From Myxococcales bacterium (GTDB lineage Bacteria > Myxococcota_A > Polyangia > Polyangiales > Polyangiaceae), in assembly GCA_004193285.1 (NCBI GenBank), contig SECP01000001.1, positions 248,001 to 312,000 on the forward strand: a DNA stretch of 64,000 bases, read 5' to 3'. The notes under the pieces are model-generated. The model did no database searches. It was not told where the DNA came from and saw only the letters and a program-made list of their open reading frames with translations. The position numbers and the translations under genes are program-made. This document shows positions 6,637 to 47,959 of the stretch, piece after piece. Positions within the stretch are counted from its first letter, which is position 1, and the number at the start of each line of letters is the position of its first letter.

Positions 6637-6791
6637 GCTCTTGATCCCCTAAGGCGTTCCCTGCTCCTCACCGTAGCTCGGCTCGTGACCAAGCGCGAGC
6701 ACAATGTGGGTGGCTATGCGCCTCAGTCGCGTTGCGTCTCGTCGCGATGCGTCGCGCCCCCGCGTTTTGACGAGCGACGCCGCGCACTGGG

Positions 6792-7991
6792 TCAGGCTTG
6801 GCTCAGCGCGTTCAGCAGATCCGCGACCAAGTCGTCCGTGTCCTCGATGCCGACCGAGAGGCGTATCAAAGCGGGATTGATGCCGATTTTACCGAGCTCG
6901 TCGTCACCCAGCTCGAAGAAGCTCATGATCGCGGGCTGCTCGATCAGGCTCTCTACGCCGCCGAGCGACGCCGCAATCTGCGGGATTCGCGCCGCGTCCA
7001 CCACGCGTGACGCAGCGGCGCGACCGCCGCGAACGACGAAGCTCACCACCGCGCCTCCGCCGCGCATTTGGCTCGTCGCGACCGCGTACGACGGGTGACT
7101 CTCCAGCCACGGGTAGTGCACGCTCTCCACGTTCGGGTGCCGCTCGAAGGCTTTGGCGAGCGCGAGCGCGCTGGCGTTCTGGCGCTCCACCCGCAAGGCG
7201 AGCGTCTTGAGCCCGCGCATGATGAGGAAGGCCGCGTGGGGGTCCAGCACCGAGCCAACGATGCCGCGGGTGTCGCGCAGCAGCGAGATGAGGTGCGAGG
7301 GCCCCGCGACGACGCCACCGAGCACGTCGTTGTGCCCGGAGAGGTACTTCGTCGCGCTGTGCAGCACGAGGTCGATGCCGAGCGAGAGCGGCAGCGAGTT
7401 GATGGGCGTGGCGAAAGTGGAGTCCACGAGGGTACGAATGCGCCCCTTGCTCTTCACGATCGCGGCGAGCTTCTCCAGGTCCACACAGAAGTTGAGCGGG
7501 TTGGTGGGGGACTCGGTCACGACCAGGCGCGTGTTCGGGCGGATCGCGGCTTCCATGGCCGCCAGATCACCGGCGGCCACGACGGTGTGCTCGATGCCGA
7601 AGCGCAGCAGAGTTTGGGTCACGAACTGACGCGTCCGGCGGTAGCAATCACGGAACAGCACCACGTGATCGCCGGCCTTCAGCAGCGACAAGAGCGCGCT
7701 GCTCGTCGCGGCCATGCCGCTCGGAAACGCGACCGCGTCCTCCGCGCCCTCCAGCGCTGCGACGCGCCGCTCCAGCTCGCGCACGGTGGGGTTGCCGTAG
7801 CGGCCGTACTCCTCGCGCTCGGGATCCGGGTCTTCGCCGCGCATGTAGCGCTCTAGCGTGGCCGTGTTCTCGAACGTGTACGTGGCCGTCTGCGCGATGG
7901 AGGGGGTCAGGGTGTGGTGCGAACGCCCGCGGTCGATACCGGCGTGCACCGCGTCCGTGGACGTCGGGGTTCTGTCTTTGCGCGTGCTCAT
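6792..7991 (-). CDS. Trans-sulfuration PLP enzyme (cystathionine gamma-synthase/lyase family)
   Basis: Cys/Met metabolism PLP-dependent enzyme of 399 residues. The core has YGRYGNPTVRELE (substrate loop), FPSGMAATSSALLSL, and the lysine that forms the Schiff base in HSATKYLSGHNDV near residue 215. The C-terminal half contains the conserved GGGAVVSFV and SLGGVESLIEQP (pocket loop) segments. These residues place it in the family but do not separate cystathionine gamma-synthase, beta-lyase, gamma-lyase or O-acetylhomoserine sulfhydrylase. Its ATG overlaps the stop of proS (ATGA), so the two are cotranslated. A siroheme sulfite/nitrite reductase is encoded nearby on the other strand, which fits a sulfur-assimilation context. 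Confidence 0.9.
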   Translation of the reverse strand: MSTRKDRTPTSTDAVHAGIDRGRSHHTLTPSIAQTATYTFENTATLERYMRGEDPDPEREEYGRYGNPTVRELERRVAALEGAEDAVAFPSGMAATSSALLSLLKAGDHVVLFRDCYRRTRQFVTQTLLRFGIEHTVVAAGDLAAMEAAIRPNTRLVVTESPTNPLNFCVDLEKLAAIVKSKGRIRTLVDSTFATPINSLPLSLGIDLVLHSATKYLSGHNDVLGGVVAGPSHLISLLRDTRGIVGSVLDPHAAFLIMRGLKTLALRVERQNASALALAKAFERHPNVESVHYPWLESHPSYAVATSQMRGGGAVVSFVVRGGRAAASRVVDAARIPQIAASLGGVESLIEQPAIMSFFELGDDELGKIGINPALIRLSVGIEDTDDLVADLLNALSQA

Positions 7992-32557: not shown

Positions 32558-33282
32558 GTGACGGCTCCCCGGCGCACCGTAACCATGGCTTGGATCTTGG
32601 CGGCTGCGGCGTGCGGCGCTCCGCCCATCTCCGGTCAGCCCAGTAGCAGCACGGTCAATGCGCCCATCCCGGCGGAGCCGACCGGGCGCCGGGCGGCCTT
32701 GCCGGATGAGTGTGAGCAGCAGCCCGGCCAGCCGCCGCCGGAGCCGCTACGTGTGCCTTACGAGGGCGTGGCGAAGGCCGCTCGCTGTCAGCGCGAGGTG
32801 TACACGATCATGGGCGGCGTCACGCATTTCCTCGGCGTTCAGTGCAAGCATTGCCACGCGGAGCCGGACTACGCGGCCGACACCCACAACAAGCAGGTTG
32901 CCAACTGGATGGCGCGCGAGCTGGTTCCGCGCCTCCGCCAGCGCGTCTCCCAAGCGGGAGGCGAGCGCGAGGTCTGGTGCAAGGACTGCCACGCCGGCAG
33001 GCCCAAGTTGCTCGGCAACCCGCGCCGGCGGACCTGGCCATCGACTGGATGACCAGCCACCTCGTGGAAGACTTTTCGACGCTCTCGGGCAAGCCTCCGA
33101 AATGCAAGGAATGTCACGGGGGAGACGTGGGCTCGCCGGAATTTCGCGCCAAGGTGATCCTGGAGGGCCCGCTCGGCCTTCCGGGGCCGACGCCTCCCGC
33201 CACGGCAAGCAGCATAGAGCCGCCGAGCCCGCTGTCCGCGCCCTCGGCGTCCCCGCCTGTGCCAGACTTCGGCAAACGCTGA
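32558..33282 (+). pseudogene. Multiheme cytochrome c lipoprotein with apparent -1 frameshift
   Basis: The first frame encodes a signal with lipobox LAAAAC, then YTIMGGVTHFLGVQCKHCH and WCKDCH. It resembles the cytochrome c subunit family of photosynthetic reaction centres (here presumably a non-photosynthetic electron carrier). That frame stops at 33052. The overlapping -1 frame continues with DLAIDWMTSHLVEDFS and a third heme site CKECH, and ends TGATG at 33280-33284, overlapping the start of the AraC gene. The continuity of domain and of operon architecture shows the two halves were one gene. A one-base deletion (or a sequencing error) lies in about 32990-33045. Start at GTG 32558 is a choice; GTG 32549 and ATG 32585 are alternatives. 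Confidence 0.75.
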
Positions 33283-34184
33283 TGCAGAGCGGTATCAAGC
33301 GCGCCCTGTTCGAGCACGTGCGGCACGATCGCGATCTCGGCATCTTGTTCCGGGACGTAACCGGGTCAGCGCTGCAGTTTCCTTGGCACTTTCACCCTGA
33401 GCTCGAGCTCACGCACATCGTGCGCGGCGCCGGCCGCCGCTACGTCGGCGACAGCATCGAGCCGTTCGATGCCGGGGACCTGTGCCTCGTCGGCGCGCAC
33501 ACTCCGCACTGCTGGCTCACCGAGCAAGGTGACCCCGGTCCGGTGCAGGCCCGCGTCATCCAATTCTTGCCCGAGTCGATCGGCGTGTCCCTAACCGAGA
33601 CGGCGACGTTCCGTCCCCTCGTCAAGCTGTTCGAGCGCGCGCGGCGCGGCGTGCTCGTGACCGGGCCGTCGCAGGCCCGCGTCGCGGAGACCATGCGCGA
33701 GCTGTTCACGGAGCGCACCCGTCCGCTCGACCGTTACGTCGGCCTGCTCTCGATGCTCACCGAGCTCTCCGAAAGCGAGCAACTCCGGGAGCTGGCGCTG
33801 CTGGATACTCCGCCTCCCCAGGACGCTCAGACCACGGAGGTTGCGGGTAGGCTGCTCGGGTTCTTGCATCAGCACGCCACCGACGCGGAGCTCTCGTTCA
33901 ATCAAGTGGCGCGAGCCGTCGGCATGTCGCGCGCCAGCTTGGGCCGAGCTTTTCCGAAGCTGTTCGGTCGTACCTTTGCCAAGTACCTGGCGGAGGTGCG
34001 CGTGGTCAAAGCCTGCGCTTTGCTGAGCGAAACGGACAAGAGCGTCGCGGAGGTGGCCGTAGAAACGGGCTTCGGCAGCGTCTCCAACTTCAATCGCCGC
34101 TTCCTCGCGCTCAAGGGAACGAGCCCGCTTCGCTACAGAAAGACCGCGCAATCGCGGGCGGTGCGCGCCCGGGCCGCTTCTTGA
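33282..34184 (+). CDS. AraC family transcriptional regulator
   Basis: A 300-residue regulator. The N-terminal cupin-type sensor domain has FPWHFHPELELTHIVRGAGRRYVGD and a metal-binding-like HTPHCW. The C-terminal about 100 residues hold two helix-turn-helices: LSFNQVARAVGMSRASLGRAF, then the conserved SVAEVAVETGFGSVSNFNRRF with SPLRYR. The start ATG at 33282 shares its A with the stop of the cytochrome frame (TGATG), so it depends on upstream translation. Target genes unknown; the sensor resembles those that bind sugars or small carboxylates. Confidence 0.9.
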   Translation: MQSGIKRALFEHVRHDRDLGILFRDVTGSALQFPWHFHPELELTHIVRGAGRRYVGDSIEPFDAGDLCLVGAHTPHCWLTEQGDPGPVQARVIQFLPESIGVSLTETATFRPLVKLFERARRGVLVTGPSQARVAETMRELFTERTRPLDRYVGLLSMLTELSESEQLRELALLDTPPPQDAQTTEVAGRLLGFLHQHATDAELSFNQVARAVGMSRASLGRAFPKLFGRTFAKYLAEVRVVKACALLSETDKSVAEVAVETGFGSVSNFNRRFLALKGTSPLRYRKTAQSRAVRARAAS

Positions 34185-34240: not shown

Positions 34241-35212
34241 ATGCGCGTGCGGGGTTGGGCCTGGGCTGCCGGCGTGATCCTCGCCGTCGGCTGCGGAGAT
34301 AAATTCTTCGCCGCAGAATCCTCTCATGGTGGCGAGGCAGGGGCCGCGGGCGCCGAGCCGGGGCCTGAAGAGGGCGGCGCGCCGGACGGCGGCACGACGC
34401 CGGCAGGCGGCGGCAGCGTGGGCGGAGCTTCGCCAGGCGGCGGCAGGCCCAGCGGCGGAGCGCCCGGGGGCGGCTTAGGCGGTGGCTTACCGCTCGGAGG
34501 CGGAGGCGGCTCCGGCGGAGTCATCATCGCCCCGTCGATTCCGGCGGACGGGCTCGAGCTGTGGTTCGACGCGCTCGTCGGTGTCACCCAAGAGGACGGC
34601 GGAGTGGCCGAGTGGCAAGACCGGTCGCCCCACGCGCGGCACGCCTTTCAAGAAGAAGTGAGCCAACGACCTCTGCTAGCGGCAGAGGCGCTCAACGGCA
34701 AGCCGTCGGTCGTCTTCGACGGGGACGACGACCTGCTGCAGGTGCCCACCCTCCCGGGGGACTTCACGGCCGGCGTTACCATCTTCACGGTGGCCCGGAC
34801 GGACAGCAACACGCAGTGCATGGCCTACTTCGAGGCCTCCAACGGCTCGGAGCAGGAAGACGTGCACCTCGGCTTCTATCAAGCGCACTACCTGTACGAG
34901 GTCGCTGACCCGTTCTTGGAGGTGAAGGTGGATCAGGTGCTCCACCTGCCGGAGGTGGTCGTCGGCGTGCAGCAGGCCATCGGGGACGTCGAGGTGCGCC
35001 GGAATGGCAAGAGCATCGGCTCGAGTAAGTTCGACCTACCAGTGCTCACCCCTCGTGAGCACGTCTTCCTGGGCAACACCGAGTATGGCGGCTGCACCGT
35101 GCTGGACGGCCGCATCAGCGAGCTGTTGGTCTACAGCCGTGGGCTGAGCCCAGACGAGGTAAGCCGGGTCGAGGCTTACCTCCAACAGAAGTGGGCTTGC
35201 TGCGCGGACTAG
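34241..35212 (+). CDS. LamG-like (concanavalin-fold) lipoprotein with Gly-rich linker
   Basis: The signal peptide starting MRVRGWAWAAGV ends in lipobox LAVGC. A long Gly/Pro-rich spacer (about residues 25-105) follows. The C-terminal 200 residues are a LamG/concanavalin-type beta sandwich as seen in myxobacterial surface proteins: LELWFDALVGVTQEDGGVAEWQDRS, KPSVVFDGDDDLL, ISELLVYSRGLSPDEV. It probably binds a carbohydrate or protein at the cell surface. It converges on the GH5 cellulase gene, 7 bp apart. An ATG 20 codons upstream is less likely because it would precede the signal peptide with an acidic stretch. Confidence 0.8.
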   Translation: MRVRGWAWAAGVILAVGCGDKFFAAESSHGGEAGAAGAEPGPEEGGAPDGGTTPAGGGSVGGASPGGGRPSGGAPGGGLGGGLPLGGGGGSGGVIIAPSIPADGLELWFDALVGVTQEDGGVAEWQDRSPHARHAFQEEVSQRPLLAAEALNGKPSVVFDGDDDLLQVPTLPGDFTAGVTIFTVARTDSNTQCMAYFEASNGSEQEDVHLGFYQAHYLYEVADPFLEVKVDQVLHLPEVVVGVQQAIGDVEVRRNGKSIGSSKFDLPVLTPREHVFLGNTEYGGCTVLDGRISELLVYSRGLSPDEVSRVEAYLQQKWACCAD

Positions 35213-35219
35213 CCGCGGC

Positions 35220-36272
35220 TCACTTTTGCATGCGGCCGCGCACGAACGCGCCGTGACCGTTCAGGTACTGGTTGGTCCACCCGCCGTCCTTCGGGGCGCC
35301 GCCCTGGAGGAGGCAGCTAGAATCCGTACAGCCGTCCAGCTTCCAAGCCGACCAGCTGATTTTGCGGATGTTCATCCAGTCGTCCCACAGCTGCGCTTCG
35401 TCCGCGCAAACGATCCCATCCAGCCCGCCGTCCGCATGGGTAGCGCCCCACTCCGTCACGAACAGCGCGATGCCGTTCGCCAGCGCCGCATCGCCCTTTT
35501 GACGGAGCCAGGCCGTGTGCGTGCACGCATAGTAGTGGAGCGTGTACATCAGGTTCGTACCCGCGACTTGGTCTTGGGCCGCGAGGTCCACGTTCTGCGA
35601 GTAGTTCGGGGTGCCCAGGATGATGACGGCTTCCTCGTCCTTGGCCCGGATCGCAGCCACCACGGCCTCGTGGTACTGCTTCAGCGCCGGCCAGGCGATC
35701 TCGATCGGCTCGTTGAACGTCTCGTAAATGACGTTGGGGGAGCCCGCGTACTTTTCGGCCACCTCGGAGAAAAACGCGACTGCTGCGTCCTGATTCTCGT
35801 AGGCCTTGTGCGCGTGGTAGTCGACGATCACGTAAACGCCGGCGGCGATGGCATTGTCGACGACCTGAAAGACCTGCTCTTTGGCCACGTCCGGGAAGGC
35901 GAGGAAGGCGTTGTCCGGCTCCACGCCCATTGCCGCGCGAATCACCTTGAGATTCCAGTTGTTACGCATCCAGCGCAGGGCCGTGAGGCTCTCGGCGTAG
36001 CCGTCCTCCTCCCAGTTCAGCCACATGCTGCTGGCGCCCTTGAGCTGAACGGCCTCGCCCGCCTCGTTCCGGAGCTGGCCTTCGGCCACGTGCAGGTGCC
36101 CGTTCTGCTCGACGACGGTCGGACCGAGGTCCTCGTCGGCGCTGATGTCCGTATCCATGCCTTGGTCGGTCGGGTCGCCTTTTTCGGGCGGGAGCGATGT
36201 CGTACCTGCGTCGCAGGCTGAGGAAAAAATCCCAAAAACGAGTGCGAGCAGGGAGAGCGGCCGACCAACCAT
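35220..36272 (-). CDS. Lipid-anchored GH5 family endoglucanase (cellulase)
   Basis: Hydrolyses beta-1,4-glucans, probably at the outer cell surface. The signal ends in a lipobox (SSAC, Cys20). The catalytic (beta/alpha)8 barrel of GH5 occupies residues about 55-345: LKGASSMWLNW, RAAMGVE, the acid/base Glu188 in ETFNEP, Tyr/His in HYYACTHTAW, and the nucleophile Glu284 in FVTEWGA. About 33 residues of acidic linker separate anchor and enzyme. It is divergent from the guanidine-transport operon and convergent with the LamG-like lipoprotein gene. Confidence 0.92.
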   Translation of the reverse strand: MVGRPLSLLALVFGIFSSACDAGTTSLPPEKGDPTDQGMDTDISADEDLGPTVVEQNGHLHVAEGQLRNEAGEAVQLKGASSMWLNWEEDGYAESLTALRWMRNNWNLKVIRAAMGVEPDNAFLAFPDVAKEQVFQVVDNAIAAGVYVIVDYHAHKAYENQDAAVAFFSEVAEKYAGSPNVIYETFNEPIEIAWPALKQYHEAVVAAIRAKDEEAVIILGTPNYSQNVDLAAQDQVAGTNLMYTLHYYACTHTAWLRQKGDAALANGIALFVTEWGATHADGGLDGIVCADEAQLWDDWMNIRKISWSAWKLDGCTDSSCLLQGGAPKDGGWTNQYLNGHGAFVRGRMQK

Positions 36273-36323
36273 GGTGGACTTAGTGGCCTAGTTGTAAAAA
36301 ATGCTCAACCAGAACCAGCTCTA

Positions 36324-36337
36324 AATTTGCGCAAATT
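36324..36337. promoter_or_regulatory. 14-bp perfect palindrome in the divergent intergenic region
   Basis: AATTTGCGCAAATT lies 119 bp upstream of the binding-protein gene and 52 bp upstream of the cellulase gene. In this GC-rich genome an AT-rich perfect palindrome in a shared promoter region is a good candidate operator. The regulator is unknown. Confidence 0.45.
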
Positions 36338-36455
36338 CGCTCATGCCGGGTCCACGCGAGAAAGCTTCTGGAGAAACGGCTTCGAAAACAGGATGAAACG
36401 TCCGACCGGGATACTCAGCATCGCTTCGTAGGCTCACCGGGCGAAAGGTCTCTCT

Positions 36456-37550
36456 ATGAACCCGATCGTTCGGCTCATCGGTATTGCGGCGCTGTCGCTC
36501 GTAGCGACGGCATGTAACAAGTCAGAGGCTCCCAAGCCGACGGCGGCAGATGCGCCCGCCCCGGCAGCGTCTGCAGCAACTGCGGATGCTCCCTCCGCCA
36601 ACGCTGCGGCTGCTCCCTCGGCAGCGCCAGCGGGGTCGGGTGGGGGACTAAAAATCGCTTACAGCGACTGGCCCGGTTGGGTGGCGTGGGAAATCGCCAT
36701 TCAAAAGGGTTGGTTCAAGGAAGCGGGCGTGGACGTCGAATTCAAGTGGTTCGACTACGTCCCGTCGATGGAAGCGTTTTCGGCCGGCAAGGTCGACGCG
36801 GTGTGTATGACGAACGGCGACGCGCTCGTCACCGGGGCGACCGGCGGCAAGAGCGTCTCCATCATCATCAACGACTACAGCGACGGCAATGACATGATCA
36901 TTGCCAAGCCCGGCATCGCCTCCGTGGCTCAGCTGAAGGGCAAGACGGTCGGTGTGGAGGTTGGCTTCGTGGACCACCTGCTGCTCCTCCACGCCCTCAA
37001 GGCGGCGAACCTGAAGGAGAGCGACGTCAAGCTCAAGAACGTCAAGACCGACGAGACGCCGCAAGCGCTCAAGTCGGGTGACGTGGACGCGGTCGGCGCC
37101 TGGCAGCCGAGCAGCGGCGCGGCCCTGAAAGAGGTTCCGGGCAGCAAGGCGATCTTCACCAGCCACGACGTGCCCGGTCTCATCTACGACATGCTCGCGG
37201 TCAACCCCAAGAGCCTGGCCGAGCACAAGGCCGAGTGGATCAAGGTAGCCAAGGTCTGGGACCGCGTTGCCCTGTTCGTGAACGACGAAAAGAACTTGGA
37301 CGAGTCGGCCAAGATCATGAGCGCGCGCGTCGGCCTCACCCCTGACGCTTACAAGGCGATCATGAAGGGCACTCACATCATGGGCCTGACGGAGGCGAAG
37401 AAGCATTGGGCCAAGGCGGACAGCCTGACCTCGGTGTTCGGCTCCAACAAAGTGGTGGACGAGTTCAACGTGAAGAACACCGTCTACAAGGCTCCGGAAA
37501 AGGTCGAAGAGTACCTAGATCCGGCGATCTCCGAGGAAGCGGCCAAGTGA
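36456..37550 (+). CDS. ABC transporter substrate-binding lipoprotein (NitT/TauT, urea-carboxylase-associated; probable guanidine binder)
   Basis: Type-2 periplasmic binding protein of the NMT1/TauA group. Signal with lipobox LVATAC, then an Ala/Pro linker to residue 65, then [23 protein letters not shown] and [22 protein letters not shown]. The rest ends [16 protein letters not shown]. Such proteins are linked to urea-carboxylase operons, and the riboswitch downstream suggests the true ligand is guanidine. AAAGG lies 7 bases before the ATG. First gene of a seven-gene operon; the permease start overlaps its stop. Confidence 0.9.
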
Positions 37551-38722
37551 CGGACGGGCCAGAACGGATCCAAGCGCAAATGTCGAGCCTCAAACCTCGC
37601 CGGCGGCTCTTGGCCGTTCGTGCACCTCTGCCACCTCGTGCGAGCGTGGTGGCGGGGGTGCTGGCCTTCGTTCTTCCTTTTCTGGCCTGGTGCATCGTCA
37701 GCTACGTCCCGTTCATTTGGCACCCTCTGGTGCACGTGCGGGACGCCGGTGACGTCAATGTTCCGGGCGAATACAGCTACGTCGCGGTCGACCAGCTCAT
37801 CGAGCTGGACGTGTTCGAGAAGCGCAATCAAGAGCTGGCCAAGGCCCACGCCAAGCCGGTCGTCGGCGAGCGCGCCAACCCGGTCTTCCTGCCGGCTCCG
37901 CACGAGGTGGCGCGCGCCTTCTACACCGCGTTCACCACGCCGCCCCTCCGCAAGGGTGACTTCTGGCTGCACGAGAGCTTGCTGCAAAGCTGCCAGGTCA
38001 TCTTCTGGGGCTTCACGTACTCGGCGATCTTCGGGCTGCCGCTCGGCATCCTGTGCGGCACCTTCCCGCTGTTTTCTCGGCTCTCCGAGCCGTTCGTGGA
38101 CTTCGTGCGTTACATGCCAGCGCCCGTCTTCGGCGCGCTCGCGGTGGCGGTGCTCGGTCTGGGCAACGAGCCCAAGATCACCATCATTTTCATCGGCACC
38201 TTCTTCCAGATGGTGCTCATCGTAGCGAACACCACGCGCTCGGTGGACGGCGCGCTCCTGCAAGCGGCGCAAACCCTTGGCGCCGGTCGCTTTCAGCTAC
38301 TCAAGAACGTCGTCATCCCCGCGGCGATCCCCAACCTTTATCGCGACATGCGCATCTTGCTCGGCTGGGCGTGGACCTACTTGGTCGTCGCCGAGCTGAT
38401 CGGCGAAAAATCCGGCATCAGCGCGTTCCTCTACCAAGAGCAGCGCTACCGTCACTTCGACAACGTGTACGCCGGCATCGTCATGATCGGCATCATCGGT
38501 CTGGTGACGGACCAAGCGCTGAGCTTCGTCGGTCGGTTCCTGTTCCCGTGGGAAACCGGCAACAACGCGCTCTTCCGCGTGCTTTCCCAGGTGAAGCTCG
38601 CTTTCTCGTCTCGCGGCGCTGCCCCGCCGGAGGCGGACCCCATCAACGACTCTCAAGTGCTGGAGCGCATGCCCGTCGCCCCCATCGGGGACGCTCCGGA
38701 GGAAGAAGCCCATGTCGGTTGA
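37547..38722 (+). CDS. ABC transporter permease (NitT/TauT type)
   Basis: Inner-membrane permease with about six hydrophobic segments, ending in a charged tail. It contains the conserved EAA-like loop [36 protein letters not shown] periplasmic insert (about residues 50-110, [20 protein letters not shown]) is longer than in SsuC/TauC. I chose GTG at 37547, which overlaps the upstream stop as GTGA and has GAGGA 9 bases before it; ATG at 37580 is the alternative. Confidence 0.9.
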
Positions 38723-39602
38723 CGATCGTCTCGAGCTGCCGGACTACCTCCACCACACCGAGGAGGTCTCCAAGCGCTTTGCGGAGATCCGCAAGCAGCC
38801 GGTGGTGATGAGCCTCTCTGCCGTGTCACGGCAGTTCGAGAGCGCGCAGGGCCCCGTCCTCGCGCTCAACAAGGTGAGCTTCGACGTGCGCAAGCGCGAG
38901 TTCATCAGCGTGATCGGGCCATCTGGCTGCGGTAAGTCCACGCTGATTCGGATCGTGGCGGGCCTGGAGACCTGCACCGGCGGGTCGATCACGATCGACG
39001 GCAAGGAAGTCGGCGAGCCCGCCGCGGACCGCGGCATGGTCTTTCAGGGGTACACGCTGTTCCCTTGGCTGAACGTGAAGCAAAACGTCATGTTCGGGCC
39101 GAAGATGAAGGGCATGCCGAAGGCCAAGGCCGAACGCACGGCCATGGATTGGCTGGACGTGGTCGACCTGACCAAGTTCGCCAACCACTACCCGGCGCAG
39201 CTCTCGGGCGGCATGAAGCAGCGCGTCGCCATCGCCCGGGCGCTGGCCAACGAACCCCGCATCCTGCTCATGGACGAGCCTTTTGGCGCGCTGGACGCGC
39301 AAACACGCGCGAGCATGCAGGCGCACTTGCTCAAGATCTGGGAAACGGTGGACGTGACCATCCTGTTCATCACCCACGACTTGGACGAGGCCATCTACTT
39401 GTCGGACCGCATCGTGGTCCTCGGAGCCCACCCGGGCCGCATCCTGGAGATCATCGACGTGCCGGTGGCGCGTGCGAGGACGGTGGACCAGTTCCTGTCC
39501 GGGCACTTCCTCGCGACGAAAAAACGGCTCGAGCAATTGATTCACCATCGTGAAACCTCCCCGAAACATGGCGCGGGCAAACTAGGTGTCGTTGCGGCCT
39601 AA
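38712..39602 (+). CDS. ABC transporter ATP-binding protein (NitT/TauT type)
   Basis: ATPase of the import system, 296 residues. Walker [10 protein letters not shown] (near residue 69), Q-loop [11 protein letters not shown], signature [15 protein letters not shown], Walker [13 protein letters not shown] and switch His in FITHDLDEA are all intact. It starts 11 bp before the permease stop, with GGAGGAAGAA upstream. The stop lies 24 bp before the guanidine-II hairpins. Confidence 0.95.
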
Positions 39603-39625
39603 ATCCGCGACAAATCACCAAGCCT

Positions 39626-39678
39626 GAGCCGGGACGACCCGGTTCGCGACGGGCCACAATGCCGGGACGACCCGGCAC
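39626..39678 (+). ncRNA. Guanidine-II riboswitch (mini-ykkC), two tandem ACGA hairpins
   Basis: Hairpin 1: core CCGGGACGACCCGG at 39630-39643, stem extended by G-U, A-U, G-C and U-G pairs to 39626-39647. Hairpin 2: GCCGGGACGACCCGGC at 39662-39677, plus a U-A pair. Both stems are CCGGG/CCCGG with the loop ACGA. Two tandem hairpins with ACGR loops are the diagnostic and nearly complete description of mini-ykkC RNAs, which bind guanidine. A third hairpin (CCGGT-CGGC-ACCGG at 39698-39711) and the Shine-Dalgarno sequence GAGGAGAAGG (about 39743) follow, before the DUF1989 gene at 39762. Control of translation or RNA stability of the degradation genes is inferred. Confidence 0.88.
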
Positions 39679-39761
39679 TGAAGTCCCTTCCAGGGTCCGG
39701 TCGGCACCGGGCGCGAGCGCTGCTCTACGTCGACCTTCCCTGTGAGGAGAAGGCACGACGA

Positions 39762-40481
39762 ATGAACGAGCTTATCCTGGAAGACGCGCTGCGCAGCGGG
39801 CAGATGTGGTCGCGGGTGCTGCAGCGCGGGCAAACCCTCAGGCTGACGGACGTAGAAGGCGGCGCGAGCGTCGCGGCGCTGTTCTACAACGCCGACGACA
39901 AGAGCGAGCGCTACAACATGCCGGACACGCTGAAGGCGCAGCACGTCGCGCGCCTCACCGCCGGCTTCGTCTTGTACTCGGACATGGGGCGGGTGCTCTG
40001 CTCGATCACGGAAGATAGCGTCGGCTGGCACGACGCGATCACGGGGCACGGCAACGCCAAGCACAACCTCGCCAAGTTCGGCGAGGGCACGTACCAGAAG
40101 CTCCGCAACGATTGGTACCGCAACACTCACGACAATTTCCTGGTCGAGCTCGGTAAGTACGACCTCGGCAAGCGAGACATCGTGGCCAACGTGAACTTCT
40201 TCGTGAAGGTCGTCGCGGATGAGCAGGGCGCGCTGTCCTTCGTGCCCAAGCATTCCCAGCCCGGCGGCTACGTTCAGCTCCGCGCCGAGATGAACACCTT
40301 GGTCGTGCTCTCGAACACGCCCCACCCGCTGGACCCGAGCACCACGTACGCTCCCAAGCCGGTCGCGATCGGCATTCGCAGCGGCGTGCCCGCGGGGAAG
40401 GACGACCCGTGCCGCCTTTCGCGTCCGGAGAATGGCCGCGGGTTCGAGCTCACCGAGAGCTACTTCGCGGGGAGGACCTGA
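39762..40481 (+). CDS. DUF1989 protein, urea-carboxylase-associated type 1; probable carboxyguanidine deiminase subunit
   Basis: A 239-residue DUF1989 protein. It shows [58 protein letters not shown] and [18 protein letters not shown], matching the UAAP1 pattern as I recall it. These paired DUF1989 proteins are established as the two-subunit carboxyguanidine deiminase (CgdA/CgdB) that works between guanidine carboxylase and allophanate hydrolase; which name fits which subunit I leave open. It is the first gene after the riboswitch. Confidence 0.85.
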
Positions 40482-40482
40482 T

Positions 40483-41133
40483 ATGTCGCTCTTGGAAAGC
40501 AAGCTCCGACCCGAAGACGCGGTGTTCGACCAGGTCGTGCTCGCGGGGGATGGCTTCACCCACGTGGTGAAGAAAGGCCAAACCTGCCGCATCGTGGACA
40601 TGGAAGGAAACCAGGCGGCGGACACGTTGTTTTACGACGCGCACGACCCGAGCAACCGCTACAGCGCGGTAGATACCGTGCGCGAGCAGGGCAACATTTA
40701 CCTGACGACCGGCACGAAGCTGCTCTCCACGGAAGGAGACGTGCTGATGACGATCGTCGCGGACACCTGCGGTCGGCACGACACCTTGGGCGGCGCCTGC
40801 GCCGCCGAGTCCAACCAGGTGCGCTACGCGATCGACAAGAAGTACATGCACGCTTGCCGTGACACCTTCTTGCTCGTGGCCGCGTGCTGCACGAAGGACC
40901 TTTCGAAGCGGGACATCACCGCCAACGTGAACTTCTTCATGAACGTGCCGGTCACGCCGCAAGGCAAGCTCACGTTCGAAGACGGCGTCTCCGGTCCAGG
41001 GCGCTACGTGGAGCTGCAGGCGGAGCGCGACGTGCGCGTCCTCATCTCGAATTGCCCGCAGCTGAACAACCCTTGCAACGGCTACAACCCCACCCCGATC
41101 CGTGTCCTGATTTGGGACGGAGGTGCCGGCTGA
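40483..41133 (+). CDS. DUF1989 protein, urea-carboxylase-associated type 2; probable carboxyguanidine deiminase subunit
   Basis: A 216-residue paralogue of the preceding protein. It has [40 protein letters not shown], and [20 protein letters not shown]. The His/Cys/Asp-rich segments are candidate metal or catalytic residues. The ATG is two bases after the previous stop with GGAGG at good distance, which rejects an upstream ATG at 40432. The two subunits are probably made in equal amounts by coupling. Confidence 0.86.
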
Positions 41134-41197
41134 GCAAAGTCATCTGAAACCCATCCAGACCTCGCCAACTCTCAACTGAAAGCTACTCTTCATAACC

Positions 41198-41326
41198 CGA
41201 AGAATCCGGAAGCCCGAGGGCCCGGGCCAATCTTGGAGGATCAGGATTGAGCCCCTGGTTTGCCAACAACACTGAACCGGTGATGTCTACGAAGCGGTTC
41301 GGGTCCTCTGGCTTCCTGATTCTTCG
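41198..41326 (+). other. Structured leader before the carboxylase gene (long closing inverted repeat)
   Basis: CGAAGAATCCGGAAGCC (41198-41214) pairs with GGCTTCCTGATTCTTCG (41310-41326), 16 of 17 bases complementary, and the pairing continues inward (GAGG with CCTC). Inside is a 6-bp hairpin, GAACCG (41274-41279) with CGGTTC (41295-41300). The 211-nt gap from 41134 to 41344 holds no gene. The element ends 18 nt before the carboxylase ATG, so it could block or expose its ribosome-binding region. It does not match the guanidine-I or -III consensus I know. Confidence 0.55.
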
Positions 41327-41344
41327 CGTTAAACGGCGCTCGCC

Positions 41345-44300
41345 ATGTTCGACACCGTTCTGATCGCCAATCGCGGCGAAATTGCTTGCCGCGTCATCCG
41401 CACCCTCAAACGCTTGGGGGTCCGCTCGGTCGCCGTCTATTCGGAGGCCGATCGTCACTCCAAGCACGTGCTCGACGCCGACGTGGCCGTTTGCGTCGGC
41501 CCGGCTGCGGCCAAACAGAGCTACCTCAACGTGGAGGCAGTCCTGGAGGCCGCGCGCAAGACGGGCGCGCAAGCCATTCACCCCGGCTACGGCTTCCTCA
41601 GCGAAAATACGCGCTTCGCGGAGGCCGCGGAGGCCCTCGGCATCGCGTTCGTGGGGCCGACCTCCGAGCAGATCTCGAAGTTCGGGCTGAAGCACACCGC
41701 GCGCGCGCTCGCCAAAGCCGCAGGCGTTCCGCTCCTGCCCGGCAGCGAGCTGCTCGCGAGCTTGGAGGAAGCGCAGACCGAAGCCGCTCGCATCGGCTTC
41801 CCGGTCATGCTCAAGAGCTCGGCCGGCGGCGGCGGCATCGGCATGTCGCTGTGCCGCAGCGCCGCGGAGCTCGCGAGCGCCTACGAGACGGTCAAGCGCC
41901 TGTCGCAGAACAACTTCGGCGACGCCAGCGTGTACCTGGAGCGATTCGTAGAACGAGCGCGCCACATCGAGGTCCAGCTGTTCGGGGACGGCAAGGGCGA
42001 CGTCATCGCTCTCGGCGAGCGGGACTGCTCGGCGCAGCGTCGCAATCAAAAGGTGATCGAAGAGACGCCGGCGCCCAACTTGGAGCCTTCGCTACGCCGC
42101 TCGCTGCACGAAGCGGCGGTGGTGCTCGGCAAGAGCGTCGGCTACCGCTCGGCGGGGACGGTGGAGTTCGTCTTCGACGCGGATCGCCGGGAATTCTATT
42201 TCTTGGAGGTCAACACGCGCCTGCAGGTCGAGCACGGCGTGACCGAGCTGGTGATGGGCGTGGACTTGGTGGAGTGGATGATCCGCACCGCCGCGGGTGA
42301 GCCGCCGGACCTGAGCCAGTACCGCGGTCGGGAGCCCCAAGGGCACGCGATCCAGGTCCGCGTCTACGCGGAGGATCCCGCGCGCGATTTCAAGCCGAGC
42401 TCCGGCTTGCTCACCGAGGTGAAGCTGCCGGACGCGCGGGTGGACACCTGGATCGAGACCGGCACGGAGGTCTCACCGTTTTACGATCCGCTGCTCGCCA
42501 AGATCATGGTGCACGGCGCGGATCGCACGCAAGCACTGGAGAAGCTCCGCACCGCGATCGACGAGACGCGCATCGGCGGCATCGAGACGAACCTGAGCTA
42601 CCTGGCTCGGCTCGCGGTGGACCCGGTGTTCGTCGCCGGCGAGACCATCACCGCTCACCTCAAGTCCGTGCGCTTCGCGACCGAGAGCATCGAAGTTCTC
42701 TCGCCGGGCACGTTCAGCATCGTCGTGGAGCATCCCGGCCGGCTCGGCTATTGGGACGTGGGCATTCCGCCTTCCGGTCCGATGGACGCCCTGGGCATGC
42801 AGCTCGCGAACCGGGTCGTGGGCAACGCCGCCGGCGCTCCGGGGCTCGAGCTCACGATGGTCGGCCCTACGCTGAAATTCGCGACGGACGCGGTCGTGGC
42901 GCTCGCGGGCGCGGCGATGAGCGCGAGTCTGGACGACGCGCCGGTGGCCGCTTTCGAGCCGATCTCGATCAAGGCCGGTCAAACGCTGAAGCTCGGCAGC
43001 ATCCCCGAGGCGGGCGCGCGCGCCTACCTGGCGGTTCGCGGCGGGTTGAACGTGCCGGAGTACCTCGGCAGCCGAACCACGTTCACGCTGGGCGGCTTCG
43101 GAGGCCACGGCGGCCGCGTGCTGCGGCGAGGCGATATCTTGCATCTGGGCAGCGCGGCCGCCAAAGACGAGCCGCGCGCGCTGGCTCCCTCGCTGCGGCC
43201 GAGCATCGGTCGCAGTTGGCAGCTCGGCGTGCTCTACGGCCCCCACGGCGCGCCCGACTTCTTCACCCCGAGCGACATCGAAACGCTGTACTCGAGCGAT
43301 TGGGAGGTGCACTACAACTCCAACCGCACCGGGGTGCGTTTGGTTGGCCCCAAGCCGGAGTGGGCGCGGCCGGACGGCGGCGAGGCCGGCCTCCACCCGT
43401 CGAACATTCACGACGTCGCTTACGCCATCGGCGCGATCGACTTCACCGGTGACATGCCGATCCTGCTCGGGCCAGACGGTCCGAGCCTGGGCGGCTTCGT
43501 GTGCCCCGGCGTGGTGGCGACGGCCGAGCTTTGGAAGATGGGCCAGCTGCGTCCGGGCGACAAAGTCCGGCTGGTGCCGCTCTCCGAGGAACAAGCCTGC
43601 GCCCTAGAATCAGCGCAGTTGCAGCTTATTGAGCGGCGCGAGGCAGAGCCAACCCCGCTGTTGGTGCAGGTGCCACCCAGTGGTGCGGTGTTGCTGGAGA
43701 GGCCGGAAACCCCGCAAAGAGTGCGAGTCGTCTACCGGCGCGCGGGGGACCGCTACTTGCTCGTGGAGTACGGACCGCTGGTGCTGGACCTGCGGCTGCG
43801 CTTCCGCGTCCACGCGCTGATGACCTGGCTCAAGGAAACGAAGCTCTCCGGCATCGTGGACCTCACGCCGGGCGTGCGCTCGTTGCAGATCCATTTCGAT
43901 CCGCACGTGCTCTCGTCGACGAAGCTGCGCGAAGCGCTGGAGCGCGCGGAAGAAGAGCTCGCCAGCATCGACGACGTAGCGGTACCAACCCGCACCGTGC
44001 ACCTCCCGCTCTCCTGGGACGACCCGCAAACTCAGCTGGCGATCCAGAAGTACACCACCTCGGTTCGGCCGGATGCGCCGTGGTGCCCGAGCAACATCGA
44101 GTTCATCCGCCGTATCAACGGCCTGGAATCGATTCAGGACGTCTACGACACGGTGTTCGGTGCAAGCTACCTGGTGCTCGGCTTGGGCGACGTTTACTTG
44201 GGCGCGCCCGTCGCCACCCCGGTGGATCCGAGGCACCGCCTCGTTACGACGAAGTACAACCCGGCGCGCACGTGGACGCCGGAGAACGCGGTCGGCATCG

Positions 44301-44953
44301 GCGGCGCCTACATGTGCATTTACGGCATGGAGGGGCCGGGCGGTTACCAGTTCGTCGGGCGTACCCTGCAGGTTTACAACCGCTTCCGCTCGACGCCGCA
44401 GTTTGCTCCCGGAACTCCCTGGCTCCTGCGCTTCTTCGACCAGATTCGTTTCTTCCCGATTTCGGCGGAGGAGCTGCTCGAGCAGCGTGAGGCCTTCCCG
44501 TACGGCAAGGTCGACATTCGCATCGAAGAGGGCACCTTCAAGCTGCGTGATTACGAGCGATTTCTCGCCGAAAATCAGACGTCCATCGGCTCGTTCAAGC
44601 AGCAGCAGCAAGCCGCATTCGAAGCCGAGCGTCAGCGCTGGATCGAAAACGGACAGCTCAGCTTCAGCAGTGACGCGCAGAGCGGAGCCGGCAGCGGGGC
44701 GGACGTTGCGGCCCTTCCGCCGGGCACGGAGCCGGTGGAGTCCCATGTCCCCGGTAGCGTGTGGAAGCTGGAGGTCAAAGCCGGTGAGCGCGTCAAACGC
44801 GGTCAAACTTTGCTAGTGGTCGAGTCGATGAAGATGGAAATCGCAGTCGAGTCCCCCGCGGACGGCGTGATCGTCGAGCTGCTGGTCGGAGAGGGGCGCG
44901 CGGTCGCTCCGGGCCAGCGCGTGGCGGTGCTACGCGGCGAGGCCGCGCCATGA
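41345..44953 (+). CDS. Biotin-dependent urea carboxylase-type enzyme (probable guanidine carboxylase)
   Basis: A 1202-residue single-chain enzyme. Residues 1-450 are a biotin carboxylase (ATP-grasp) with MFDTVLIANRGEIACRVIRT, the glycine-rich SSAGGGGIGMS loop, HIEVQLFGDGKG, and FLEVNTRLQVEHGVTE. Residues about 460-770 resemble the AHS2/KipA half of the carboxyltransferase, and about 790-1010 the AHS1/KipI half. Residues about 1120-1202 are a biotinyl domain with the lysine in ESMKME (K1163). The enzyme adds CO2 to guanidine (or urea), using ATP. The guanidine riboswitch and the paired DUF1989 genes argue for guanidine as preferred substrate. Its stop overlaps the allophanate hydrolase start (ATGA). 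Confidence 0.95.
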   Translation: MFDTVLIANRGEIACRVIRTLKRLGVRSVAVYSEADRHSKHVLDADVAVCVGPAAAKQSYLNVEAVLEAARKTGAQAIHPGYGFLSENTRFAEAAEALGIAFVGPTSEQISKFGLKHTARALAKAAGVPLLPGSELLASLEEAQTEAARIGFPVMLKSSAGGGGIGMSLCRSAAELASAYETVKRLSQNNFGDASVYLERFVERARHIEVQLFGDGKGDVIALGERDCSAQRRNQKVIEETPAPNLEPSLRRSLHEAAVVLGKSVGYRSAGTVEFVFDADRREFYFLEVNTRLQVEHGVTELVMGVDLVEWMIRTAAGEPPDLSQYRGREPQGHAIQVRVYAEDPARDFKPSSGLLTEVKLPDARVDTWIETGTEVSPFYDPLLAKIMVHGADRTQALEKLRTAIDETRIGGIETNLSYLARLAVDPVFVAGETITAHLKSVRFATESIEVLSPGTFSIVVEHPGRLGYWDVGIPPSGPMDALGMQLANRVVGNAAGAPGLELTMVGPTLKFATDAVVALAGAAMSASLDDAPVAAFEPISIKAGQTLKLGSIPEAGARAYLAVRGGLNVPEYLGSRTTFTLGGFGGHGGRVLRRGDILHLGSAAAKDEPRALAPSLRPSIGRSWQLGVLYGPHGAPDFFTPSDIETLYSSDWEVHYNSNRTGVRLVGPKPEWARPDGGEAGLHPSNIHDVAYAIGAIDFTGDMPILLGPDGPSLGGFVCPGVVATAELWKMGQLRPGDKVRLVPLSEEQACALESAQLQLIERREAEPTPLLVQVPPSGAVLLERPETPQRVRVVYRRAGDRYLLVEYGPLVLDLRLRFRVHALMTWLKETKLSGIVDLTPGVRSLQIHFDPHVLSSTKLREALERAEEELASIDDVAVPTRTVHLPLSWDDPQTQLAIQKYTTSVRPDAPWCPSNIEFIRRINGLESIQDVYDTVFGASYLVLGLGDVYLGAPVATPVDPRHRLVTTKYNPARTWTPENAVGIGGAYMCIYGMEGPGGYQFVGRTLQVYNRFRSTPQFAPGTPWLLRFFDQIRFFPISAEELLEQREAFPYGKVDIRIEEGTFKLRDYERFLAENQTSIGSFKQQQQAAFEAERQRWIENGQLSFSSDAQSGAGSGADVAALPPGTEPVESHVPGSVWKLEVKAGERVKRGQTLLVVESMKMEIAVESPADGVIVELLVGEGRAVAPGQRVAVLRGEAAP

Positions 44954-46677
44954 GCGAGTCCCTCGCCGAGCTGTCGGCAGCTTATCGCGAGGGGCGTCGG
45001 AACGCGGCGGAGGAGCTCTCGGCGTTGGTCCGCCGCATCGACTCCGCCGGTAACGAGCCGGTTTGGATCTCGCGCTTCAGTGAGCAGCAGGTGCTAGCCC
45101 AGCTGGAGGCGGCGGACACCGCGGGCCCGCTCTACGGTGTGCCTTTCGCGGTCAAAGACAACATCGACGTCGCGGGGCTGCCGACCACGGCTGCTTGCCC
45201 CGAGTTCTCCTACTTGCCCGCCCGCCACGCTCATGTGGTGGAGCGGCTCGTTCAAGCGGGCGCGATCGTGATCGGCAAGACGAACCTGGACCAGTTCGCC
45301 ACCGGTTTGGTCGGCACGCGCACGCCCTACGGCATCTGCAGCTCCGTCTTCGACGAGCGCTACGTCTCGGGCGGCTCCAGCTCCGGCTCGGCGGTGGCGG
45401 TGGCGAGCGGCTTGGTCGCGTTCTCGCTGGGCACGGACACCGCTGGCTCCGGCCGCATCCCCGCCGCCTTCAACGCGCTCGTCGGGCTGAAGCCTACCCG
45501 GGGCGTGCTCAGCACGCGCGGGGTGGTGCCGGCCTGTCGCTCGCTGGACTGCGTGTCGATCTTCGCGAAGACCCTTGCGGACGCGGAGTTGCTCTTCGAG
45601 CTCGGCGCCGGCTTCGACGCGGATGACTCCTTCTCGCGACCGCGCGAAGCGGTGAGCGCCTTGGGTGACGCGCGCCCACGCCTGGCCGTGCCTCGCGCCG
45701 AAGACTTGGAGTTCTTCGGCGACGACGAGAGCGCGGAGCTCTTTTTGGCCGCGGTCGAGCGCGCCAAGGGCCTGGGCGCGGAGATCGTGCGCTTCGATCT
45801 GGCGCCCTTTCGCGAAGCGGCGCTCCTGCTCTACGCGGGGCCGTGGGTCGCGGAGCGCACCACCACCGTCACGGAACTGCTCGCCCAAAAGCCGGAAGCC
45901 ATCCACCCCGTGGTGCGCGGCATCGTCGAGGGGGGACGCAAGTACAGCGCGGTGGACGCGTTCGAAGCCCAGTACCGCTTGGGTGAGCTGCGGCTCGCGG
46001 CCGCGCGCGTGCTGGCTGGATGTGACGCGCTGCTGCTCCCCACCGCGCCCACTCACTACACGATTCGAGAAGTCCTCGAGAACCCGCTCGAGCTCAACGC
46101 TCGCCTCGGTACGTACACGAACTTCGTCAACCTCCTGGATCTAGCCGCACTCGCCGTGCCGGCGGGGCGCAAGAAGTCGGGCTTGCCGTTCGGGATCACG
46201 TTCATGGCCCCCGCGTTCCACGACAGCCGGCTCCTGGAGCTTGGGCGCAGCTTCGTGGACGAGCCTGCTCTGAAGCCGCAGCCGGCCCACGAATGTGTTT
46301 GGCTGGCAGTGGCAGGCGCGCACCTGTCGGGGCAGCCGCTCAACCACGAGCTCACCTCGCGCGGAGCTCACCGCGTCCGCACGACGAAAACCGCGCCGGA
46401 GTACCGACTCTACGCGCTAGATACGGTGCCGCCCAAGCCGGGCCTGGTGCACGCGCCGGACGAATCCGCCCACGCGATCGAGGTCGAAATCTGGGAGCTC
46501 ACCCGTGAGGCGTTCGGCTCGTTCGTCGCGAACATCCCCGCACCGATGACGATCGGGATGACCAAGCTCTCGGACGGCTCGTTGGTCAAAGGCTTCTCCT
46601 GCGAGCCCCACGCGCTGCAGGGAGCGCGAGAGATCAGCCAGTTCGGCAGCTGGCGCGCCTTTCGCGCGAGCGCGTAA
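44950..46677 (+). CDS. atzF: Allophanate hydrolase (amidase signature family)
   Basis: A 575-residue amidase-signature enzyme that converts allophanate to ammonia and CO2, the last step of the pathway. The catalytic Lys is in PFAVKDNIDVAG, the cis-Ser in SGGSSSGSAVAVASG, and the nucleophile Ser in TDTAGSGRIPAAFN. A C-terminal domain of about 130 residues (residue 445 on, ECVWLAVAGAHLSGQPLN) is the accessory allophanate-hydrolase domain. Length is in the usual range. Gene order and overlap place it at the operon end. Confidence 0.94.
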   Translation: MSESLAELSAAYREGRRNAAEELSALVRRIDSAGNEPVWISRFSEQQVLAQLEAADTAGPLYGVPFAVKDNIDVAGLPTTAACPEFSYLPARHAHVVERLVQAGAIVIGKTNLDQFATGLVGTRTPYGICSSVFDERYVSGGSSSGSAVAVASGLVAFSLGTDTAGSGRIPAAFNALVGLKPTRGVLSTRGVVPACRSLDCVSIFAKTLADAELLFELGAGFDADDSFSRPREAVSALGDARPRLAVPRAEDLEFFGDDESAELFLAAVERAKGLGAEIVRFDLAPFREAALLLYAGPWVAERTTTVTELLAQKPEAIHPVVRGIVEGGRKYSAVDAFEAQYRLGELRLAAARVLAGCDALLLPTAPTHYTIREVLENPLELNARLGTYTNFVNLLDLAALAVPAGRKKSGLPFGITFMAPAFHDSRLLELGRSFVDEPALKPQPAHECVWLAVAGAHLSGQPLNHELTSRGAHRVRTTKTAPEYRLYALDTVPPKPGLVHAPDESAHAIEVEIWELTREAFGSFVANIPAPMTIGMTKLSDGSLVKGFSCEPHALQGAREISQFGSWRAFRASA

Positions 46678-46704
46678 ATTCGCAGTATCAGACCACTAGA
46701 TATA

Positions 46705-46859
46705 CCGAGACCAGCTCTCGGATCGTCAGCACCGGCAGCAGGAACTGCTGGAAAGCATTGAATAATGCTCTCCGGCAGGTACGGAATCAGCAGTTTCTAC
46801 TGTGGCGGCTGCGCGCGACTTGATGTAGCTATGAAACTGGTTCCAGGTTTTCGGACCTG
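46705..46859 (+). other. Cluster of four small hairpins between the guanidine operon and the GH6 cellulase gene
   Basis: CCGAGA-CCAGC-TCTCGG (46705-46721), CAGCAG-GAA-CTGCTG (46736-46750), AGCATT-GAAT-AATGCT (46754-46769) and CAGGT-TTTCGG-ACCTG (46844-46859) are all perfect stems. The first could end transcription of the operon, though no T-run follows. The others lie in the 211-bp leader of the cellulase gene. The region holds no gene. Confidence 0.5.
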
Positions 46860-46888
46860 TCGCGCGTATCACCCAGGAATTAGTTGCC

Positions 46889-47959
46889 ATGAGCCTGCTC
46901 CATCGGATCGGTCTGTTCTCGTGTCTCGCCCTGTCCATCGCCGCGTGCGGTGGCTCTCAGCAGGAAGCCTCCGCCCCTGCCGCTGACCCCGGCCCCTCCT
47001 CTTCACCGGCCAGCAGCGCCGCCAAGGAAGAGCCGCTGACGGAAGCCCCCAAGCCGCCCAAGGCGGAGGGCAACCCGTTCAAGAACATGAAGCTCTGGGT
47101 GGACCCGGACTCGCTCTCGATGCTGACCGCGAACTCGCTTCGCAAGAAGGATCCGGAGAAGGCGAAGATCCTCGACAAGATCGCGCAGCAGCCGCAGGCC
47201 CTGTGGGTCGGCCACTGGAACAAAGACGTCAAGCGTTACATGGAGTACATCATCGGCAAGACCAAGGCCGACGGCGCGGCTCCGATCTTCATCCTGTACA
47301 ACGTGCCGGGGCGCGACTGCGGCCAGCACTCCTCCGCGGGCGCGATCGAGACGGGTGACGAGTACCGTCGCTGGATCCGCAAGATCGCGGCTGGCGTCGG
47401 CCAGGAGAAGGTCGTGTTCGTGCTCGAGCCGGACGCGCTCGGCTTGCTCGACAAGAACGAGAACGGCGCGACGTGTTTGACGCCAGAGAAGCAGGAAGAA
47501 CGCCTCGCCATCATCTGGGACGCGGTCAAGGTCCTGCGCCAAAACCCGAACGCGGCCGTCTATCTGGACGCCGGTCACGCGCACTGGGCCCCCGCCGCGG
47601 TCATGGCCGACCGCCTGAAGCGCGCCGGCATCGAGGACGCGAACGGCTTTTCGCTCAACACCTCCAACTACGTTTGGGACAAGGAGAACATCCCGTACGG
47701 TCACGAGGTCTCCAAGCTCGTCGGGGGCGCTCCGTTCATCTTGGACACCAGCCGCAACGGCAACGGTCAAGATCCGAAGCTGCAGTGGTGCAACCCGCCG
47801 GGCCGCAAGATCGGCAAGCTGCCGACGACCGAGACGGGCGATCCGCTGATCCAGGCCTTCCTGTGGCTCAAGCGCCCCGGTGAGTCGGACGGTGAGTGCA
47901 ACGGTGGACCCAAGGCCGGCGCCTTCTGGCTGGACCAGGCCATCGACCTCGCCAAGTAA
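46889..47959 (+). CDS. Lipid-anchored GH6 family cellulase
   Basis: A 356-residue lipoprotein: signal with lipobox SIAAC (Cys20), Ala/Pro linker to about 60, then a GH6 catalytic domain. Family hallmarks are FILYNVPGRDCG (Asp143), VLEPDALGLL (catalytic acid Asp182), YLDAGHAHW, ILDTSRNGNG and the C-terminal WLKRPGESDGECNGG. It releases cellobiose or cleaves internally; exo versus endo cannot be told from sequence alone. AGGAA lies nine bases before the ATG. It is monocistronic, bounded downstream by a strong terminator. Confidence 0.94.
   Translation: MSLLHRIGLFSCLALSIAACGGSQQEASAPAADPGPSSSPASSAAKEEPLTEAPKPPKAEGNPFKNMKLWVDPDSLSMLTANSLRKKDPEKAKILDKIAQQPQALWVGHWNKDVKRYMEYIIGKTKADGAAPIFILYNVPGRDCGQHSSAGAIETGDEYRRWIRKIAAGVGQEKVVFVLEPDALGLLDKNENGATCLTPEKQEERLAIIWDAVKVLRQNPNAAVYLDAGHAHWAPAAVMADRLKRAGIEDANGFSLNTSNYVWDKENIPYGHEVSKLVGGAPFILDTSRNGNGQDPKLQWCNPPGRKIGKLPTTETGDPLIQAFLWLKRPGESDGECNGGPKAGAFWLDQAIDLAK

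Follow-up and report, generated by a model that had tools for sequence, protein, structure and literature searches.

The window, the whole stretch of 64,000 nucleotides (64 kb) analysed here, contains between positions 36456 and 46677 seven genes on the forward strand, all open and co-directional (Table 1). A sequence-only reading had proposed at this place a seven-gene set for guanidine uptake and degradation, and the genes proved to be intact and to belong to the families named. The analysis was computational. The genome is a MAG with an estimated contamination of 7.8%; the contig that carries the operon is 440 kb long, and further genomes of the genus have the operon as well. The closest relatives of this MAG are themselves MAGs of Polyangiaceae, in agreement with the myxobacterial-type genome that had been assumed.

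Table 1 Genes and regulatory features of the operon (window coordinates)
Feature	Position	Strand	Remarks
Conserved SBP leader, CGCTTCGTAGGCTCACCGG(G/A)CGAAAGG, including Shine-Dalgarno-like GAAAGG	36422..36448	+	27 nt; near-identical in window, L049 and L050
ABC transporter substrate-binding lipoprotein (SBP), NMT1/SsuA type, presumed guanidine binding	36456..37550	+	Pfam/NCBIfam; specificity inferred from context
ABC permease, GTG start	37547..38722	+	BPD_transp_1; start of the longer frame without homology in relatives
ABC ATPase	38712..39602	+	ABC_tran
Guanidine-II (mini-ykkC) aptamer, two GGGACGACCC hairpins	39626..39675	+	RF01068; found also in L049 (identical) and L050
Predicted hairpin that covers the cgdA Shine-Dalgarno (GAGGAGAAGG)	39728..39760	+	-15.9 kcal/mol
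cgdA, carboxyguanidine deiminase subunit	39762..40481	+	DUF1989, TIGR03425 'UAAP1'
cgdB, carboxyguanidine deiminase subunit	40483..41133	+	DUF1989, TIGR03424 'UAAP2'
Unclassified inverted-repeat element between cgdB and gca	41193..41331	+	139 nt; 32-nt arms, 88% complementary
gca, guanidine carboxylase, annotated urea carboxylase	41345..44953	+	TIGR02712; D699 and D949 signature residues
Allophanate hydrolase	44950..46677	+	Amidase and C-terminal AH_C domains

Gene products and gene junctions

CgdA and CgdB are two distinct DUF1989 subunits encoded in tandem, each scoring above its own NCBIfam cut-off (CgdA with TIGR03425 at 326.8 bits, cut-off 205.95; CgdB with TIGR03424 at 331 bits, cut-off 284.7). 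Three cysteines retained in CgdB (in DTCGRHD, HACRD and SNCP) align with trimethylamine N-oxide demethylase, and none of them is found in CgdA, which makes it probable that the subunits are not equivalent. Gca matches the 'urea carboxylase' model TIGR02712 at 1866 bits (cut-off 1304) over profile positions 1-1200, which corresponds to the full architecture, and the allophanate hydrolase matches TIGR02713 at 780.9 bits (cut-off 511.05) and comprises the domains PF01425 (amidase) and PF21986 (AH_C). The SBP scores 147 bits with TIGR03427, below the curated cut-off of 333.9, and belongs to the wider SsuA/NMT1 group; the specificity of the importer for guanidine is presumed from the genomic context only.

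The gene junctions are tight, with overlaps of 4, 11 and 4 nt and a spacing of 1 nt between cgdA and cgdB, apart from two wide ones: the 159 nt between the ATPase gene and cgdA, holding the riboswitch, and the 211 nt between cgdB and gca, holding an unclassified element. The permease frame is open from TTG 37406; the gene probably starts at GTG 37547, in a GTGA overlap with the SBP stop codon, since the homology in relatives begins well within the longer frame (at about residues 38-75, mostly past 50).

The operon is flanked by genes for a GH5 cellulase (35220-36272, reverse strand) and a GH6 glycosyl hydrolase (46889-47959, forward strand), which together with an adjoining AraC-type regulator gene (32658-34184) give its surroundings the look of a polysaccharide-degrading neighbourhood.

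Guanidine or urea as the substrate

The library model names of the operon enzymes all say urea, just as the sequence-only reading had warned that homology alone would lead to misannotation. Taken literally, the NCBIfam names (urea carboxylase, urea amidolyase-associated proteins 1 and 2, putative urea ABC transporter) describe a urea carboxylase/urea amidolyase operon processing urea, which we consider highly improbable. Guanidine carboxylase needs aspartate at both positions 1330 and 1584 (Kluyveromyces lactis numbering), the former telling it from urea carboxylase (PMC11410670), and the same Asp/Asn difference between the two enzymes is given in a review (PMC12186494). Gca shares the carboxylase architecture of the K. 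lactis urea amidolyase (PDB 5I8I, 3VA7) in a full-length alignment of 1190 bits; however, where this urea enzyme has N1330 Gca has D699, with D949 aligned to D1584 (PDB 5I8I), and the allophanate hydrolase is encoded by a separate gene. Aspartate occupies the discriminating position in 79 of the 79 readable carboxylases from related loci, an expected count rather than an independent or unbiased control, as these proteins were gathered via their CgdB.

The urea reading is further opposed by the guanidine-II aptamer present in the operon and by the urease encoded elsewhere in the genome, which makes a second urea route unnecessary. Moreover, the genome encodes no DUF1989 proteins besides CgdA and CgdB, and no part in urea breakdown is known for such a pair. 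Because of the D699/D949 signature, the aptamer before the enzyme genes and the CgdA/CgdB pair with a separate urease, the earlier preference for guanidine over urea is upheld: the seven genes very probably constitute an operon for guanidine assimilation in a Polyangiaceae bacterium, and Gca is predicted from its signature residues to prefer guanidine.

The operon is a complete gene set for the import of guanidine and its breakdown to ammonia by an already known pathway. The ABC importer would take up guanidinium, and Gca, with ATP and biotin, would convert guanidine into carboxyguanidine, an activity ascribed to it on its signature residues. CgdA and CgdB, whose family membership is established, would deiminate carboxyguanidine to allophanate and ammonia, and allophanate hydrolase would yield two further ammonia and CO2. 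The guanidine-bound aptamer before cgdA would raise enzyme gene expression, most likely through translation.

The same operon might serve detoxification, or import a substituted guanidine (e.g. methylguanidine) as the main substrate; both variants seem to us unlikely. No SMR-family exporter was detected in the genome by Pfam, leaving degradation as the only sink found, but an importer would be counter-productive in detoxification. The guanidine-II aptamer of Vreelandella boliviensis does not discriminate guanidine from methylguanidine (PMC12508155), but MgdH/MgdL-type genes were not found within the operon described here. Guanidine assimilation, the preferred reading, corrects a urea annotation in a myxobacterial lineage and is a useful re-annotation of a known pathway.

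Guanidine-II riboswitch upstream of cgdA

The riboswitch that had been noticed in the middle of the operon was recovered as a match to RF01068 at 41.3 bits (gathering threshold 32, E 8e-5) between the ATPase gene and cgdA; it folds into two ACGR-loop hairpins and is the sole Rfam match above threshold in the 64-kb window. Matches to RF01068 call for caution in this phylum, where others in GC-rich genomes (L009, L010, L012) resemble coding GAC-GAC repeats; the match in the window does not. In the closest relative (L049, which is the same contig as L159 of G461) the aptamer shows 100% identity, against 69-78% at third codon positions of the genes next to it, and is hence under selection; a 73-74% relative likewise has it in front of cgdA. 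Judged by this conservation the match is more than chance, and the RNA at 39626-39675 is predicted to bind guanidine and to control the start of cgdA.

The aptamer ends 86 nt before the cgdA initiation codon (ATG 39762), and the stretch between them (39676-39761) is 96.5% identical to L049 and includes the predicted hairpin over the Shine-Dalgarno sequence. In published models the folded riboswitch exposes the ribosome-binding site (PMC5486947); in the folds predicted here no coupling could be recognised that would link the aptamer to the masked Shine-Dalgarno sequence across 68 nt.

The importer genes have no known guanidine riboswitch in front of them. Guanidine-I (RF00442) gave no match at gathering in the window, none at E<=1 in 35200-47400, and none at L049 or L050 either. 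Scans for sigma-70 and sigma-54 promoters before the SBP gene found nothing.

The same genome has a second guanidine-II match on genome contig C95 (12167-12214, corresponding to L003 9167-9214, reverse strand; 37.7 bits), the first half of which is almost identical to the operon riboswitch. No recognisable gene was seen within 700 nt downstream, only a 9-codon frame; this copy is perhaps a relic, or else a decoy. A further genome (G206, L020-L029) has eleven RF01068 matches, which look like repeats, tandem or overlapping, and not like riboswitches.

Two unclassified conserved elements

Two other elements, the SBP leader and the 139-nt inverted repeat between cgdB and gca, match no Rfam family and are conserved in three genomes (window, L049 and L050). 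Apart from the leader, the SBP upstream region of L050 is unalignable with that of the window. Within the leader CCGGGCGA (36437-36444) has the potential to base-pair with TCGTTCGG (36466-36473) on the other side of the start codon.

The 139-nt element lies directly before gca, the position of the guanidine-II switch in other bacteria, and contains a hairpin at 41274-41300; folding of the cgdB-gca gap gives z = -5.1 against shuffles. It is 97.8% identical between the window and L049, compared with 86% in the flank and 69-78% at third codon positions, and a diverged homologue occupies the same place in L050. When 28 pairs of the arms were compared between the window and L050, 17 showed no change, 3 were kept despite changes on both sides, 1 was kept with a change on one side, and 6 were broken, the remainder being mixed. 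Since these counts are mixed and come from only two independent sequences (the window and L049 count as nearly one), the element is not yet callable as a structured RNA. An antisense peptide within it was considered and rejected, as a 5-nt indel between the window and L050 breaks any such frame.

Both elements carry CGCTTCGT-N4/5-TCACCGG on opposite strands, and the window has no other exact copy; the copy in the 139-nt element (41277-41296, reverse strand) contains CGCTTCGTAG-N3-TCACCGG, shared with the leader. The opposite orientation of this bipartite 15-base motif provides 10+7 complementary bases in the window, and in L049 the shared stretch amounts to 13 contiguous bases, a length reached by 0 of 100 shuffles. 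In the L050 element the motif is altered at two places adjoining its first half, and a looser form is present at both element sites in all three genomes.

A pair of protein-binding sites (a shared operator) and complementary RNA segments are the main options for the two elements, and both fit. We put forward, as a tentative idea and somewhat against the odds, that these new cis elements replace guanidine-I and the gca-proximal guanidine-II, acting as an operator pair or through RNA-RNA pairing. It is doubtful, though a serious contender, that the 139-nt element is a decayed MITE or another mobile inverted repeat without function: its long terminal inverted repeats, the ends of which are TA-like (TAAC...GTTA), and its lack from the cgdB-gca gaps of several relatives would suit such an origin, but it is single-copy in the genomes searched, stands at the same position in three of them, exceeds its flank and the third codon positions in identity between the window and L049, and has the 15-base motif in common with the SBP leader. 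A search for further copies of 41193-41331 gave none in its own genome and, in relatives, only those at the same place. The regulatory reading of the two elements is a modest, real and new lead, as yet unexplained; should they prove regulatory, these bacteria control part of their guanidine response by something not yet described.

Two further schemes were rejected. A general regulon for the motif was sought with CTTCGT-N3-6-TCACCGG, which has matches elsewhere in six genomes, none with the spacers of the operon copies (AGGC, AGACA, CAGAC); three looser-pattern matches shared by both close relatives have a codon pattern that suggests coding sequence. The AraC-type protein (32658-34184) was considered as a local regulator; of the relatives, just the closest one has its gene close to the operon, the gene was not found in the stretches compared for L050 and six others, and no regulator gene is conserved beside the operon in the stretches compared.

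Comparison with known operons

The sequence-only reading had regarded the arrangement of importer, enzymes and internal riboswitch as notable in itself; this could not be sustained, since the same set has been published for V. boliviensis and for Raoultella and Klebsiella, whose operons with the same genes are experimentally characterised (PMC12508155, PMC12186494). The operon is thus a new member of an already known type, now in Polyangiaceae. Like the V. boliviensis operon (PMC12508155) it comprises an ABC importer, cgdA, cgdB, an internal guanidine-II, gca and allophanate hydrolase; in V. boliviensis, however, guanidine-I precedes the operon, guanidine-II stands between cgdB and gca, and the operon also has mgdH/mgdL, whereas the window has guanidine-II before cgdA, no guanidine-I that we could find and no mgdH/mgdL. 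The Raoultella/Klebsiella operons (PMC12186494) likewise place importer, carboxyguanidine deaminase, guanidine carboxylase and allophanate hydrolase under guanidine riboswitches, with class I for importer and deaminase and class II for carboxylase and hydrolase; the window has one class II, before the deaminase genes. The local difference from the described operons is therefore regulatory, and the position of the switch within the pathway is not fixed.

Distribution and riboswitch position in relatives

CgdB was found in 15 of the 184 genomes of the order, and about 80 loci from several phyla share the gene set. In a carboxylase tree built by a quick method, eight sequences including that of the window form a Polyangiaceae group (SH-aLRT 99); the other sequences from the order fall elsewhere, which gives the operon more than one history there. 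Five verrucomicrobial and gammaproteobacterial relatives (L070, L078, L079, L080, L086) have sigma-54-promoter-like TGGCA-N-TTGC motifs upstream of the SBP gene, hinting at nitrogen control of the importer in those bacteria; none was seen in the window.

Among the related loci, guanidine-II hairpins lie between cgdB and gca in 33 proteobacterial ones. The aptamer precedes cgdA in the window, L049, L050 and L165, and in a variant form in L129 (4687-4774, reverse strand), L160 (7793-7882) and L161 (11664-11752, reverse strand). The variants give no Rfam match at gathering and have a linker of 40-42 nt between the P1 and P2 hairpins, foldable into an extra hairpin; as guanidine-II linkers of 7-40 nt are on record (PMC7544219), they would represent the extreme of the known range with an added helix. 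In the Polyangiaceae guanidine-II RNAs a conserved GCCY...GGGC flanks P1 and could form a helix, a candidate that was set aside, the sequence being conserved and the helix statistics weak. In L160 an opposite-strand gene (6545-7965, an acyltransferase by eye) splits the importer genes from the riboswitch-cgdA unit, which suggests that there the riboswitch heads a separate unit.
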